From Ceraceosorus guamensis (lineage: Eukaryota; Basidiomycota; Exobasidiomycetes; Ceraceosorales; Ceraceosoraceae), in NCBI RefSeq assembly GCF_003144195.1, contig NW_020290103.1:1-48053 (forward strand): a DNA stretch of 48,053 nt, read 5' to 3'. Below are positions 6,355-47,488 of this stretch, in pieces. Under the pieces are notes generated by a model. That model saw only the letters and a program-made list of their open reading frames with translations. It ran no database searches and was not told where the DNA came from. The position numbers were made by a program, and so were the translations under genes. Each line of letters starts with the position of its first letter. Positions within the stretch are counted from its first letter, which is position 1.

Positions 6355-9300
6355 GGCGAGAAGAGGTGTGGAGCTGATCGCACGCCGCATATATGCATCG
6401 CTGCCTTGCCGTTCCTTCAACCCCTCGATCACCATACAGAGGAAGAGAATGAGGAGCTGGACGAAGACGATCTGGATCTGCTGGCAGAGAACACCGGCGT
6501 CAAGCGGAGAAAAGAGGAGAGGAAACTCAAACGTTTTCGTCGAGGTTCGGCTACGCCCGAACCTCGTCCCTCTTCGCGTCCCGAAGATCTGAGTCACATG
6601 TTCGACGATGATGACGAGGATGGTCCAGCTGCAGCTGTCACTGCAACTGCTAAAAGGCGCGCAGACACTGATGAGGAGGAGGAGGAGGAGGAGGAGGATG
6701 ACGGCTTGCCATCGGCTGCCAATGCCCTTCGTCGTGCGACGGATGCAAGATCGAGGCGTGATCGCGATTTGGCCGCTCAAGCTGCTCCTTCTGGCTTCGA
6801 AGACGAGATGGAAGATTTCATCGACGATGACGAGGATTCCGACATGGACGCATCCATCTCTGACGGAGAGAGGGAAGCTCGTCGAGCAGAAAAGCGCAGA
6901 TTGAGAAAGGAGGAGAGGGAAGCGAGAAAGGCTTCCAAATCCGGCTTGGACCTCGACCCCACGCGCGCGGGCATCGATCAGGATCAGTGGGAAGAGCTCA
7001 ATGATGTGTTTGGAAATGGCGAAGATTACGCTTGGGCTTTTAAGAAGGGTGATAGGGAAGGCGAAGAGGGAGCGCTGGAAGAAGAAGACGAAATGTACGA
7101 GGATGAGCTGGCGGATGAGCAGAGAAAGAAGAAGCTCGAGTTCAAAGACGTGAGTACATCATTTTTGAGCACGTTCCTTGTCGTCTCAGCGCTTGACGCT
7201 CCCTGCCATCGTCGCCCAACACATGCAGATCTTTGAGCCGGCTGCGATCAAGGAGCGCATGCTGACCGACGACGACGACCGCATCCGTCGAGCCGACTTT
7301 CCCGAGCGGTGGCAACTGGCACTGCCGGGCGAGGATGGGCTGCAGCTGCTAGAGAGACAACTCACCTCTTCCGAGCTGGACGATGCAGCTCGATGGGTCA
7401 ATGCTCGCATATCGCAACGATGCTACAGGCTCTTCCTCTCGCCCGAAGGCGAGTTCAATCAGTTTTTGGGCGTCTGGCAGCAATGCGTTCGCACGACTGT
7501 TGCGCACGTCCTGAACAAGCGCAGAGATGCCATGTATCTGTACGTCCATCATGCGGACGAGCATGAGCTCAGGACGCAGCACAATTACGGCGCGGGAAAT
7601 AGACAGGGAGCTACGATCATCACGCTGCTCAACAGGCGCGATTTGCAGAGCCTCGTCTCGGCTTGCTTGCGCTTCAAATCCCTGCTGGCTCGCAAGGACA
7701 GCTTGAGAAGGCTGTTCGAGCGACTGCTTCAGGATGACGTCAACGCCACTGAGGAAAATCAGTCGTTGGCTGTCGCGCCGACCGTGCCCAAGGGAGCACC
7801 TAGTCAAGAGCAACGCAACGAGTTTGCGCAGCTGCTCGCGCGCGCAGAGAGCACGGAGGAGGTCGCGGATGTGGCGGATTGGCTCAATATGCAGTTTGGC
7901 CAGAAGCTGCGGGACGCGCAGGCTATAGAGACGGGCCTGTCCCTGAATGGCAGATCAGCGACGACCTTCAAGAAGCCCGCGATCGTCAGTCGATACGAGC
8001 GCGTCAAAGCTACGATGGCGTTGGACTTTGCTCGCAAGGTGGCCATGCCCGCTGCGCACCTGTACAAGAATTACGAAGCTCCGCACGGTAGACCGTACAC
8101 TTGGCAAGATCCGACAGAGGACCCAGCCACGCTAGCTGGTCAGTACTTTGACGCGGCTGCCAACATGCTCTCGGCGGAGCGCGTCTTGGACGAAGCCAAG
8201 CTGCTGCTGGCAAACGAGATAGGACGTGATCCATCCATGAGGCAAGTGGTGCGCAGTCTGTTCAGAGACTTTGCGTTCGTCAGCGTCGCTCCGACAGAAC
8301 GCGGCGAGTCGGTGATTCACGAGGAACATCCATTCTACAATTTCAAGTACCTGATATCGAAGCCCGTGCCCGAATTCAGGGAGCATCAACCTCCAACGGA
8401 AGGTCAGCTGGCTCCGGCCGTGCCGAATCCTGTTCAATTTCTGCTCATGCTCGAGGCGGAAGAGAAGCTGCTGGTCAATATCGACGTTCGACTCTCTCCT
8501 CACCAGGTCCAAGGCTTTGAGGATCGCTTGACCGCTAATTTTGCAGGAGAACATTCCACTGCGACTTCGTATGCGTGGACGGACTTTAGGAGGGAAGTCA
8601 TCAAGGCTGCGTTGGAGGACTTTTTGCTGCCCGTGGGAAAGATTTGGGTCAAGGAGTGGTTGAGAGAGGAGTGCCAAGACTGGCTTGGACGTGCTTGCGA
8701 AGTTCAACTGAGTAGGGTGAGTAGGCTAGATGCGAACGCAGAATGCTGTATAGGCCCTGACTCGGCGCTCTGGAATGGCTTCTTTACGCGCAGCGCATCG
8801 ATTGCAAACCTTACCAGTCGAAATCGATGCATGCTCGACTTCGCGACGAGAAGGACGCTCCGAGCCAATGGGACGCGGAACAGGATGATGAGGACGACAC
8901 GCTAGTCGGCGATAAGCACTCTAGCACAGTCCCTTCTGTTCTCGCAATCTCTGCTGGCCAAGGAGACCCGCGAAGAGACACTACGAAGGCCGTCTTCCTC
9001 AACGCACGCGGCAAGCTCATCGAGGGCAGCACGTTTGATGGACTTGCGCCTCCGCGAGGACACGCAAACGATGCGGGTGTGTCCTTGCAGCGCATCGACG
9101 AGCGCGATCTAACATCGCTGCCCAGCAAGGACAGAGAGACCTACCAATCTCGTATGGCCTTTATCGACTTGCTGAAGAGACGAAGACCAGACGTTGTTGT
9201 GGTCAACGGCTTTAGCGCTCGCACCGTGGCGCTCAGATCGCTGGTACAGCTTATGGCTACCAAGGCAGAGGAAGAGCTCGTGTCAGAGAGCAGATTGCCA

Positions 9301-11999
9301 CCTCTTGGTACGCCGCAAGGCACAGCGGAGCGCGAAAAGCTCTGCATCGACGTCATCTCTGTGGACGACGATGTTGCTCGTCTTTATCAGCACAGCGCGC
9401 GAGCAGCCGACGAACATCCCTCGCTGGACGTCTTGACCCGCTACTGCGTCGCTCTGGCTCGATATGCCCAATCGCCGCTGAACGAATTTGCGGCGCTGGA
9501 AGAGGGCGATTTGCTTTCCATTCGGTACGACGCCAATCAGCAGCTCTTGCCCAAAGCCAAGCTGGCCATGCACCTCGAAAGAGCCATCTCCGCTTCGGTC
9601 TGCCACGCGTGCATCGACATCAATCGAGCGTCCACGGACGCTTACTATGCGGCTATGCTCAAGTTCGTCAGCGGACTGGGTCCACGCAAAGCTACTGCGC
9701 TGATTCAGACCATCAAGGCTGAGCTAGAGGGTGTGGTAATCAACAGGCTCAGCTTGCTCATCGGCGCTCAAGACAGTCTGATGCGCGAGAGCGACGTGGA
9801 GATCTTGACGCTGGAAGTGTGGCACAATGCGTGCCCATTCTTGGTGGTGCGTGGAGTCAAGTCGCAAAGGTACCAGGGATCGCCAGACGTGCTGGACGGT
9901 ACGCGCATTCATCCGGAAAATTACAGGTATGCCAGGTTCATTGCGTTCGACGCGCTGCAGAAGAACGAGGAGGATCTGGATCCGAACGAACATCCTTCTC
10001 AGTTTTGCTCGGAACTGCTCAGGGATCAGCGCCGCGAGGCAAAGGTGTCGACGATCGATTTGAGCGACTATGAGGCGAAGCTTTTGCAGGAGCAGCAGGA
10101 CAAGGGCGAAGCGCCCAGCAGGAAGCTCACCCTGCTCAACATGGTTGCTCGGGAACTGGTCTATCCGTGCGTGGATGCGCGGGCCGCGTTTGTGCGCCCA
10201 ACTTCGGACGCCTTGTTGTCTGCCCTCACGGGCGAAACGAGCCAAACGCTGTCTGGCATTGTGGCCGTCACTGTGGTCAGCGTGCAGCCGGAGCACGCCA
10301 TCGTTCGACTAGCTTCGGGCATCGAGGGCACAATCAATGGCGAGTACCTCAGGCCATACCCTAGCGAGTACTACCAGATGGAGCAGATGCGACCTCCTTC
10401 TTTGCGGGACATTGTCAAGCCGATGCAGACCATCAATGCTCAGATCATCGATGTGGACAAGGACACCTTTCGCGTCGAACTCACTGCGAGACCAGACCAC
10501 TTGGAAAATGCGGCGGCGCATCCTAGCGGTAGAGCAGTCCTGCCTGATCAACGATACTTTGACCACGAAGCGGCGGCGATGGCAAAGGCCAAAGCGGAGG
10601 ATGAGGTGCGACGAAAGATGAATTTGAGAAATGTCAGATCCATCAATCATCCGTACTACAAGAACTTCAACTCGACTCAGGCCGAACAATACTTGGCCGA
10701 CTCCAAATTTGACATCGGAGAAGCAATCGTCAGACGAAGTTCAAAGGGCAGTGACCATCTGGCGGTGACGTGGAAGGTTGCGCCTGGCGTATTCCAGCAC
10801 GTTGGTGAGTGCCAGATCAGAGCTTGGTCGAGGCGGCAAAAAGTTGAACGCCATGCACTACTTGCACGCACTTTGCAGATGTCCTCGAGCTGGACAAGGA
10901 AAACGAGTACGAGTTGGGCCGAACGCTGCGCGTCGGCAATATGGGCTCGTACTCGGACATCGACGAGCTATTGGTCGGTCACATTGCCCCGATGGCTGCG
11001 ATGGTCAGGCAATTGCTTCATCACGAAAAGTACCAAGGCGAGGAAGCGCAATTGGGTGAGTTCGTGCGCGCCAACTTCCTTTCTCTTCATACCGCCCTCA
11101 CATTTAATCCCCCCCCCACGCATTTTTTGGCATGCAGATCAAGTCCTGACCAGCTTTACGCAAGCAAATCCGAACCGCAGCACGTACGGTTTTGCATTGG
11201 ACCGGAAGCGTCCTGGCGCCTTTGTTCTGGGCTTCAAAGCGAATAGGGATGCAAAGATTCAAAAATGGCCCGTCAAGGTGCTCCCTGGTCGTTTCAAGCT
11301 GCTCGACACGGACCATTTGCCCAACGTTACGGCGCTGTGTGAGTAGCGTGGACATCGATAGACGGATGTTGGAGGTGCTGCTTTCGCCATGCTGACATGG
11401 CATCTCCGCGCGCGATCTTTGTAGGCAACTCGTTCAAATCGCAGTACACCTCGATGGTCGGTATGCAGCGCGGAGGCAGGACTCCAGGTGGAGGTCTCGG
11501 CGGCGCTACTCCGCGCGCATTGGGTATGGGCACCACACCCTACGGAGCTGGGCTTGGCTCTGCGACTCCTGGTGGGCCGCTAGGCGGACGCACGCCTGGA
11601 CGCTACACGGCGTACGGTGCTGGATCTGCTACTCCTGGTGCGCTGGGAATGCGAACACCGTACGGTGCAGCAGCTGCGACGGGCTCCATGACGCCCAGCG
11701 CTGCTGCTGCTGCTCGGCTGGGCGGCACTGGGCAGACGCCAAATCCCTACGCGCGAACGCCCAATCCTTATGGAGCGCCAGCCACTCCGCAGCATCAGCA
11801 GCAGCAAGGAGGACAATTTGGAGCATCGAGACCTGGCGCGCCTCCGGCAGCTCCGATGGGCTTCGCAATGCCACCTGGCGCTCCGCCCGCACCTCCTCCA
11901 GGCTTTCCCAACGCTCAACCTCCCGGTCCTCCTCCTTCCCGACCGCCTTCAAACGTGCATCCCGACAGGTGGGCTATGCAGCAGGGAGGCGCTTACTAA
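5986..11999 (+). CDS. SPT6: Transcription elongation factor and histone chaperone Spt6
   Basis: Seven exons: 5986-6274, 6440-7149, 7229-8716, 8818-10804, 10879-11055, 11138-11338 and 11425-11999. All six donors are GTGAGT and all phases agree, giving 1808 residues. Spt6 travels with elongating RNA polymerase II and reassembles nucleosomes. In order: an acidic, disordered N-terminus; an Iws1/Spn1-binding-like motif (ELNDVFGNGEDYAW, about 282-295); the Tex-like helical core from about 334; a YqgF/RNase H-like fold (LAISAGQGDP, about 870; PDVVVVNGF, about 955); a helix-hairpin-helix (VSGLGPRKATALIQ, about 1113); an S1 domain (about 1305-1340); and tandem SH2 domains (about 1443-1600). The last 190 residues are Gly/Pro/Thr-rich with 11 Thr-Pro pairs. 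The ATG at 5986 is followed at once by the acidic Ser-rich leader typical of the family. Intron 1 holds a (GA)n run. Confidence 0.96.
6312..6352. repeat. (GA)n dinucleotide run in SPT6 intron 1
   Basis: About twenty GA units lie inside the first SPT6 intron (6275-6439). Intron 1 is 165 bases, a multiple of three without an in-frame stop, so retention would insert 55 residues rather than truncate the protein. Confidence 0.9.
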
Positions 12000-44946: not shown

Positions 44947-44954
44947 TATAAGAA
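44947..44954 (+). promoter_or_regulatory. TATA box of the defensin-like gene
   Basis: TATAAGAA lies 154 bases upstream of the ATG at 45101. Between them is a C/T- and A-rich leader (TTCCTCATCAAAACATTCTCAACCAA type), as in highly expressed fungal genes. The ATG has AAG just before it. Confidence 0.55.
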
Positions 44955-45100: not shown

Positions 45101-45702
45101 ATGAAGTTCTTCGCCATCGCCAGCACTTTCGCCATCGTCGCTGCTTTCGCCAGCGCTGCTGCAGTCGACTCCTCCTTCGAGCTCGTCGAGGCACGCGAGA
45201 CTCCCACCTGCCTCATCGACGGTGCCATTAGCGGTGTGAGTTGCGCTTCGCAGACTGCATCCACGTTCTATGGCCGATGGCGAGCTGCTGACTCTCTGCC
45301 AAATCTCTCTCATCCGCCTCTTTCCCACCGTAGGCCTGCAACCTCAAGTGCGAGCACCGCGGAGCCAAGTCGGGCAGCTGCTCTTCGGGAACTTGCGTCT
45401 GCTCTTACCGCAAGCGTAGCGAGGATGAACACTCGGCCATGATGGCCAAGCGCGCCGAGGACCTGGCAAGCCGAGACTTGGTCCGTCGTCTCTCTTGCCA
45501 AGTCGGAAACATTGGTCCTCTCAACTCTGGAGACGCCCTCTGCTCCGCCTCTTGCCTCGACGCTACGGGCGGAAAGAGTGAGTATGCAGCGCATGCGCTC
45601 CCCTTCTTGTTGCTCATTCGCACACTGACCACACACGCTTCTTGACGCTTCACAGAGGACGGACACTGCAACGAGGACTCGGTCTGCATCTGCAACAAGT
45701 AA
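45101..45702 (+). CDS. Secreted precursor with two tandem defensin-like (CS-alpha-beta) domains
   Basis: Three exons: 45101-45235, 45334-45577 and 45656-45702; both donors are GTGAGT; phases agree; 141 residues. MKFFAIASTFAIVAAFASAAA is a signal peptide. Domain 1 has Cys37, 47, 51, 61, 66 and 68 (C-x9-C-x3-C-x9-C-x4-C-x-C). Domain 2 has Cys100, 115, 119, 131, 137 and 139 (C-x14-C-x3-C-x11-C-x5-C-x-C). Both have the CxxxC...CxC frame of CS-alpha-beta folds, and each has the GxC gamma-core (GSC at 59-61, GHC at 129-131). Every cysteine of the mature part belongs to a domain. The linker holds three basic sites, R71-K72-R73, K84-R85 and R96-R97, the last just before domain 2, as expected for Kex2 cleavage in the Golgi. 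Each domain is split by an intron: intron 1 falls before the CxxxC helix of domain 1, intron 2 between CxxxC and CxC of domain 2. A TATA box and a CT-rich leader suggest strong expression. Antimicrobial or host-directed action is inferred from the fold, not shown. Confidence 0.88.
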
Positions 45703-47488
45703 ATGCTCGGCCTCAAGAGTTCAATGGTCAAGAGGACATACAGCCGCTCAATCATGTCGTTCTCGCCAAGCGTCTACCCAGCCGGTTCTGGTGGGCTTGT
45801 CGAGGGCCACCAATATCTTACTTACAACATCTAAAGGCTTTCGAGCTCAGATTATGACTCTCCCTAATCTCCCGACCATTCCCCACTTCTTTGTACCTCT
45901 AGCCGTTCACACCTGAATTCTACTACTACTTCTTTACATTTCTTTCTTGCGCTGAGAGTAGGTGGTAGAGCGGCAGTTTTGGGGGAAAGGCGAGCTGTTG
46001 ATGAGGACTGCGCACCTCATGAAGCGGTCGCTAACCAAGATCATGATCTTCACAAGGGGCGACGTTTACAGGTTTGGGGATGCGTGGAGTGCGCCGCGGC
46101 TCGTCTGATCGATAGCCTTGGCATGCGCATCCTTCTTTCTACATCGGCCTTTCCTGCGGAGGAGAGTTGGCGCGTCATGAGAGCTGCCTCCTCAAGGAGG
46201 TCCTCCTCCTCAAGGAGGAGCAATTTATGCCGGAGCATGGCGGGCCTGGCAGTACGATGTCATGGCAAAAGAAAAAGTCCTGCGGGAGTTGAAGACCTGG
46301 AAACGGACAAGCTTGTGCGCGAGCTACGATCATCATGACCATCATGGGCTGCAAAACGCACAGGCAAAAAAGTTGCCTACATATCTGACCAGTTCAAGCT
46401 CGAGCTTGTGGATGCCAGACCGCAGAGTGGTACGAGTTTTACGACGAGAGGGTGGTTCTTGTCGGATCGATAAGCGGCTGGAAAAAGTTAGCGCAGATGA
46501 GCCATCTCGAAATGGACCGAGAGTGAGGTGGCTCGCCAAGCCGCAGAATTCACAGCTCGATCGTCCAGCGCACTTGAAGGGTCGTTCATGAAGAGAGACT
46601 CGAAGTGAAGTTGCGAGTCGCCGCAACACCTAGTGCGCGACTGACTCTCAAGGAGAAGCAGCATGTCGCTAGAAGCGTAGGGGGAAGCGCACTCAGACTT
46701 CGGACCAGTATCTGAGTCTTAGTGATTCACTGTGGTGCAAAGGAATTGCATTTCTGGTTGCGATGCAGGATCACGAGATGACATCGCTACAGAAAACATT
46801 CGTGTTTAGAGCCTGAAATTGGTGTTTAGGACCCGTCAGCAATCCGAGTCAGTTTTGTGAGTGAACGATGACGGCTCTTGTGATCTTCAGTCATGCTTTA
46901 CAAGCGCGTATGTACATGCACATACATGCATGGGAGAGCGCGCGGCGCGCGTTACACTTCTGACATTCGGGTTGCTGTGTAGTTCGACAGCAGTGTTCAT
47001 TCCCTACGAATTCTTCACTGTCGAATGTCTCGTGACCCCTTGACCACCCAGCACTCTCGATCAGAACCTTGCACCAACGCCTGACGAGCGCGCATTCCTT
47101 GTTGACTTCGGTATGAGATTGGCCAGCGCGAGCCCGCGCAAAGTGACAGTGGACCGCACCGGGGGGTCGTTTGTCTCGAGTTCCCATGCACACAAGACGC
47201 ATCCGTGCCGCGATGACCCTGCCCTTGCAAGGAAGGGCCACAAGTCAGCGAGAGAGCCGCTTGCGAGGCAGCCACCAGAAAGAGAGGACAGAGAGAAGAA
47301 GATCGAGAGGTGCAATGAAGTAGCAAGGCGGCGGGAAAGATCGGGCGGCGAAGACATCGAACGGCAAAAGGCGGAATGGTCAAGTACGCAGACAAAAAAG
47401 CAAGGAGAAATCGTTTGTCGGATCAATCTCGGCATCGTTTTTTGTGATCACGCTCTCTATGTTCTGACCAATCCCGCTCGGGCCCCAT
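45703..47488. other. Intergenic region between defensin-like gene and tRNA
   Basis: About 1.8 kb with the defensin-like 3' UTR at the left end. A pair of short hairpins with identical TCAA loops lies at 46187-46220. Open frames of 60-136 codons exist on both strands, but none has a family signal, a good start context or partner exons. Confidence 0.5.
46187..46220. repeat. Two adjacent hairpins with the same TCAA loop
   Basis: CCTCC-TCAA-GGAGG at 46187-46200 and CTCCTCC-TCAA-GGAGGAG at 46203-46220 are perfect stems of 5 and 7 base pairs in tandem, about 480 bases downstream of the defensin-like stop codon. They could be a local duplication or an RNA structure. Confidence 0.6.

Follow-up and report, generated by a model that had tools for sequence, protein, structure and literature searches.

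Two defensin-like domains and Kex2-type sites in one secreted-looking precursor of the smut-lineage fungus Ceraceosorus

A two-domain precursor

The stretch of Ceraceosorus DNA analysed here (the window; NW_020290103.1, 48,053 nucleotides) is an entire contig, C108 of the 23.8 Mb, 199-contig genome that we searched. On its plus strand, positions 45101–45702 hold a gene of three exons, in a splice model built from the sequence, whose 141-residue product looks secreted and carries two defensin-like domains with Kex2-type sites between them (Table 1). Very probably the gene encodes a two-defensin, Kex2-processed precursor of the fungal defensin-like peptide (fDLP) kind. The model agrees in 141 of 141 residues with CBOM_04347, a hypothetical protein annotated at NCBI for Ceraceosorus bombacis (Ustilaginomycotina, Exobasidiomycetes, Ceraceosorales), whose UniRef name, listed in shortened form, opens 'Invertebrate defensins family pr'. 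The gene appears unreported in the literature searched, where no paper pairs any two of CBOM_04347, Ceraceosorus and defensin; the two-defensin precursor is itself a kind already known in fungi. The gene brings the order Ceraceosorales into the set of two-defensin precursors, known in this subphylum from Malassezia. It is a clean, short gene on which the action of Kex2 on a double defensin could be tested, and it opens no new kind of system.

Two complete cysteine patterns

Both domains carry the cysteine-stabilized alpha-beta (CS-alpha-beta) framework C...Cx3C...C...CxC, domain 1 with cysteines at 37, 47, 51, 61, 66 and 68 (loops x9/x3/x9/x4/x1) and domain 2 at 100, 115, 119, 131, 137 and 139 (loops x14/x3/x11/x5/x1). 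Each has a gamma-core GxC, with Gly two residues before Cys4 (G59-S-C61 and G129-H-C131). The domains lie 31 residues apart, with basic sites RKR 71–73, KR 84–85 and RR 96–97 between them, the last two residues ahead of Cys100. By eye, residues 1 to about 19 show the typical n, h and c regions of a signal peptide, followed by an acidic 13-residue pro-stretch. An original prediction made from the DNA had described one small protein with two complete six-cysteine patterns, each with a GxC, a linker of this length with these three sites, and introns that split the domains at different places; coordinates, loop lengths and linker all hold, as do the introns (the first, phase 0, before Cys47; the second, phase 1, in the Cys3–Cys4 interval of domain 2).

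Shuffling residues 21–141 with all 12 cysteines kept gave two CS-alpha-beta-type patterns in 0 of 200,000 trials and at least one in 584. When all six frames of the window were scanned for the pattern's last five cysteines, a single place emerged, in domain 1 of the defensin gene; an intron interrupts domain 2. The two halves of the spacer (residues 74–97) are identical at 4 of 12 positions; over the first 10 positions the 3 identities are reached by 6.3% of 100,000 shuffles, and are not significant.

Family assignment and predicted fold

The whole protein passes the Pfam Defensin_2 profile (23.1 bits, cut-off 20.4), as does domain 2 alone (21.6 bits), which mainly carries the match; domain 1 alone falls below the cut-offs of all four families listed for it. 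Sequence search of the PDB returned marginal matches only, the best being a mutant defensin (E 0.036). AlphaFold2 gave a mean pLDDT (its per-residue confidence score) of 53.4 from the single sequence and of 67.5 with a 14-row alignment, and both models place, at modest confidence, a helix over Cys2–Cys3 and two strands over the Cys4–Cys6 part in both halves. Structure matches over approximately 34–72 and 97–141 are largely CS-alpha-beta peptides with low scores; the structure-match list of the second model is topped by unrelated proteins. Of the checks proposed with the original prediction, fold modelling came out in favour at modest confidence, with helix and two strands in each half, and comparison with defensin family profiles favoured the whole protein and domain 2.

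A search with three known fungal defensins, by a method that needs shared five-residue words, gave 27 candidates, of which 25 were at E <= 1. In none of these 25 do two patterns occur; 19 hold a single pattern and 6 no complete one. The 14-row alignment took 13 of them, retaining the incomplete P0008 and P0011; the 12 others were left out by choice and by no fixed rule, namely the near-alike Microsporum proteins P0003 and P0004, and P0014–P0016, P0018, P0020, P0021 and P0023–P0026. In this alignment the single-domain defensins align to domain 2, with C100, C115, C119, G129 and C131 invariant.

Precedents among fungal precursors

The original prediction had held that known fungal defensin-like precursors, of the plectasin type, carry one domain each. 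This is refuted by five two-defensin precursors, maglosin, beauvesin2, manisin, pochlasin2 and asosin, from which removal of a spacer propeptide could give two defensins (Wu, Gao and Zhu 2014, PMC4165938), and by Bizyarsin from Zymoseptoria ardabiliae, an fDLP with two defensin domains (2017, excerpt of PMC5234102). Maglosin, from Malassezia globosa in the Ustilaginomycotina (contigs AAYY01000039 and AAYY01000024; PMC4165938), shares its subphylum with Ceraceosorus and, judged by its described layout, its architecture: one precursor with a signal peptide (in Ceraceosorus a signal-peptide-like stretch), two CS-alpha-beta domains and a spacer that would be removed. In Ceraceosorus both complete domains lie within a single frame, and the spacer has basic sites. 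Bizyarsin, alike in its two defensin domains, is a protein of an ascomycete. Over 70% of the Zymoseptoria fDLPs reported with it carry a neutral or net negative charge (excerpt of PMC5234102), as do the Ceraceosorus peptides.

Other known systems fit less well. The single-domain plectasin, eurocin and micasin align with domain 2 at Cys1–Cys4 and the GxC, and have a dibasic site directly before the mature peptide; they differ in having one domain and a GFGC amino end, for which domain 2 (starting LSC) and domain 1 (with TPTC) have no counterpart; by this amino end neither domain is of the plectasin type. The fungal Kex2-processed repeat proteins (KEPs) are likewise secreted precursors with several peptide cores between Kex2 sites (excerpts of PMC9769878 and PMC7329392); the words 'defensin' and 'cysteine' are absent from the text of PMC7329392. 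Unlike KEP cores, those of Ceraceosorus differ from each other and are cysteine-rich. KEP cores are near-identical repeats, which two domains not alike beyond their cysteines do not match.

Origin of the two domains

Global alignment of domain 1 with domain 2 scores 24.5, a value that 1307 of 5000 shuffles of domain 2 with cysteines fixed equal or exceed. The likeness of the domains is no greater than their cysteines force, and the earlier view that they diverged after a duplication is not established. They may just as well stem from a fusion of two distinct defensin genes. The domains of maglosin are both classed as fDEF2, and the other four precursors of PMC4165938 pair an fDEF4 domain (amino-terminal) with an fDEF3 domain (carboxy-terminal), that is, domains of different families. 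The differing intron positions, taken in the original prediction to argue against a very recent copy, do agree with an old event but cannot separate duplication from fusion.

Processing and function

In the mechanism that we propose, an fDLP-type prepro-protein with two CS-alpha-beta peptides would enter the secretory pathway, where a Kex2-type convertase would cleave after RKR73, KR85 and RR97. The products would be peptide 1 (about 33–70, or 20–70 if the pro-stretch is retained), two short spacer peptides and peptide 2 (98–141). Each peptide is predicted, at modest confidence, to fold as a helix and a two-stranded sheet, presumably held by three disulfides whose number and pairing (Cys1–Cys4, Cys2–Cys5 and Cys3–Cys6) we assign by family analogy. 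The amino end given for peptide 1 is tentative, as no more than one basic residue, Arg32, stands before it. RR97 lies near the KR position of the single-domain proteins, where KR occurs in 11 of the 19 with a complete pattern. A profile search of the genome placed a proprotein convertase P domain over the cut-off at one place (Table 1); with the basic sites and this convertase frame, cleavage is plausible, and so, as far as sequence can indicate, is the release of two peptides. Both would then work extracellularly, on the plant surface, where the likeliest role for these small peptides is antimicrobial or competitive.

Net charge is 0 for peptide 1 (without RKR) and −2 for peptide 2. The Cys4–Cys5 loops, which we take to be the c-loops, read SSGT in domain 1 and NEDSV in domain 2, with no basic residue in either. 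Because both peptides are neutral or acidic, a classical antibacterial function is uncertain, which weighs against the antimicrobial role; we put this role, or one in competition, forward tentatively as the likeliest single one. The same charges and loops would suit peptides that regulate the fungus itself, in growth, development or stress, and two fungal defensins, pechrysin and anisin1, are reported to lack antibacterial action, anisin1 being linked to fitness (PMC4165938 and excerpt of PMC5234102). This alternative seems doubtful to us; AfusinC, predicted to be the C-terminal 38 residues of a precursor of 146, is anionic yet active on Gram-positive bacteria (excerpt of PMC6181372).

A host-directed role is unlikely. 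It would suit C. bombacis as a leaf pathogen of Bombax, its relative C. guamensis being so far known as an epiphyte (excerpt of PMC11687029), and it would suit a product that is small, cysteine-rich and secreted-looking. Malassezia and Aspergillus sojae are not leaf pathogens. Precursors laid out alike in both (PMC4165938) speak against this role. It is improbable, finally, that the two different acidic-to-neutral CS-alpha-beta peptides of one transcript, delivered at a fixed 1:1 ratio, work as a pair, whether each has its own target or both form one unit of two parts. The literature consulted on fungal two-defensin precursors reports no such division of labour, which may be peculiar to this smut lineage, since the database search made with the precursor gave a single protein, CBOM_04347 itself (at E <= 1, among 32 candidates; the method needs shared five-residue words and is weak evidence for absence).

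Quite improbable, too, is a mature product that keeps the linker as a single bi-domain defensin with jointly acting domains. The model for this is plant MtDef5, which also has two defensin domains per gene product and which, in work on the bi-domain form, exceeded its domains taken singly in potency (excerpt of PMC5700942); the second AlphaFold2 model, moreover, shows the spacer as a helix. That helix belongs to a model of modest confidence. MtDef5 differs in that its domains are 84% identical, its net charge is +16 and its 7-residue linker has KK but no KR or RR (excerpt of PMC5700942), whereas the Ceraceosorus spacer region has three basic sites, one directly before domain 2, and the genome has a Kex2-type frame. 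These points favour a two-defensin precursor that is cleaved.

Gene model

Third codon positions have a GC content of 0.746; the two introns have 0.571 and 0.551. In computed splice alternatives, both cysteine patterns are lost when intron 1 is retained, with or without intron 2, and when exon 2 is skipped; retention of intron 2 alone loses the second. That wrong intron calls have joined two cysteine patterns is hardly credible: the model does come from genomic sequence, not from RNA-seq, but against such an artefact stand the shuffles, the GTGAGT/AG introns, the third-position GC bias, the patterns broken by intron retention or exon 2 skipping, and the identical independent annotation CBOM_04347. 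For the two-defensin gene, intron 1 (two residues before Cys47, Cys2 of domain 1) matches in phase and in its place within the predicted helix the phase-0 introns found in the helix region of fungal defensins, and intron 2 is unlike the phase-2 c-loop intron (PMC4165938). Two minus-strand open frames, 45310–45666 (118 codons) and 45405–45755 (116 codons), overlie the gene and are probably by-products of GC-rich codons.

Table 1. Coordinates of the defensin gene in the window and of the convertase frame elsewhere in the genome
Feature	Position	Strand	Details
Exon 1	45101..45235	+	Start codon, signal-peptide-like N terminus, acidic pro-stretch to Arg32, domain 1 Cys1; equals CBOM_04347 residues 1–45
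Intron 1	45236..45333	+	98 bp, phase 0, GTGAGT...AG, after residue 45, within domain 1 predicted helix 43–53
Exon 2	45334..45577	+	Domain 1 Cys2–Cys6, linker with RKR 71–73, KR 84–85 and RR 96–97, domain 2 Cys1–Cys3; identical to CBOM_04347
Spacer, residues 74–97	45418..45489	+	Two 12-residue stretches, each with [S/A]ED start and dibasic end
Intron 2	45578..45655	+	78 bp, phase 1, GTGAGT...AG, between domain 2 Cys3 and Cys4
Exon 3	45656..45702	+	Domain 2 Cys4–Cys6, stop TAA; identical to CBOM_04347
TATA-like box TATAAG	44947..44952	+	Starts 154 bp 5' of start codon; possible promoter element, by sequence match only
Kex2-type proprotein convertase frame	G000:C32:48897-49157 (L008)		509-codon frame; Peptidase_S8 from profile position 39 and whole P domain

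Search for paralogues

Searched against its own genome, the whole protein gave, besides the three exons of its gene, weak matches at two places (C7, E 0.029; C47, E 1.75). The Defensin_2 profile gave two places below the cut-off (16.3 and 12.7 bits); this exon-by-exon search also missed the gene at 45101–45702, and does not establish a single copy. A six-frame scan of four 3-kb loci around both weak protein places and both Defensin_2 places (L004–L007) revealed neither a complete six-cysteine pattern nor its last five cysteines in succession. Three-cysteine pieces are present on both strands of all four loci, 2 to 7 per locus, so that an intron-split defensin within them is possible. The 16.3-bit place was rejected as a low-complexity SL-repeat frame (L006 1204–1743, in C72) in a locus without a six-cysteine pattern. 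A DNA pattern search with a guessed cysteine motif gave no match.

Surroundings of the gene

Ten large frames of the window were compared with Pfam. Six matched, all housekeeping-like: SPT6 (two), an EFTUD2-like U5 small nuclear ribonucleoprotein (snRNP) protein (two), a protein with a TPX2 domain and a WD40 protein. The remaining four were without a match, and the scan gave no sign of a cluster around the defensin gene. The SPT6-like domains extend across two overlapping long frames (7178–11346), as expected from introns. About 490 bp 3' of the stop codon of the defensin gene, at 46187–46219, adjacent short inverted repeats, CCTCCTCAAGGAGG and TCCTCCTCCTCAAGGAGGA, were seen by eye and could form hairpins.
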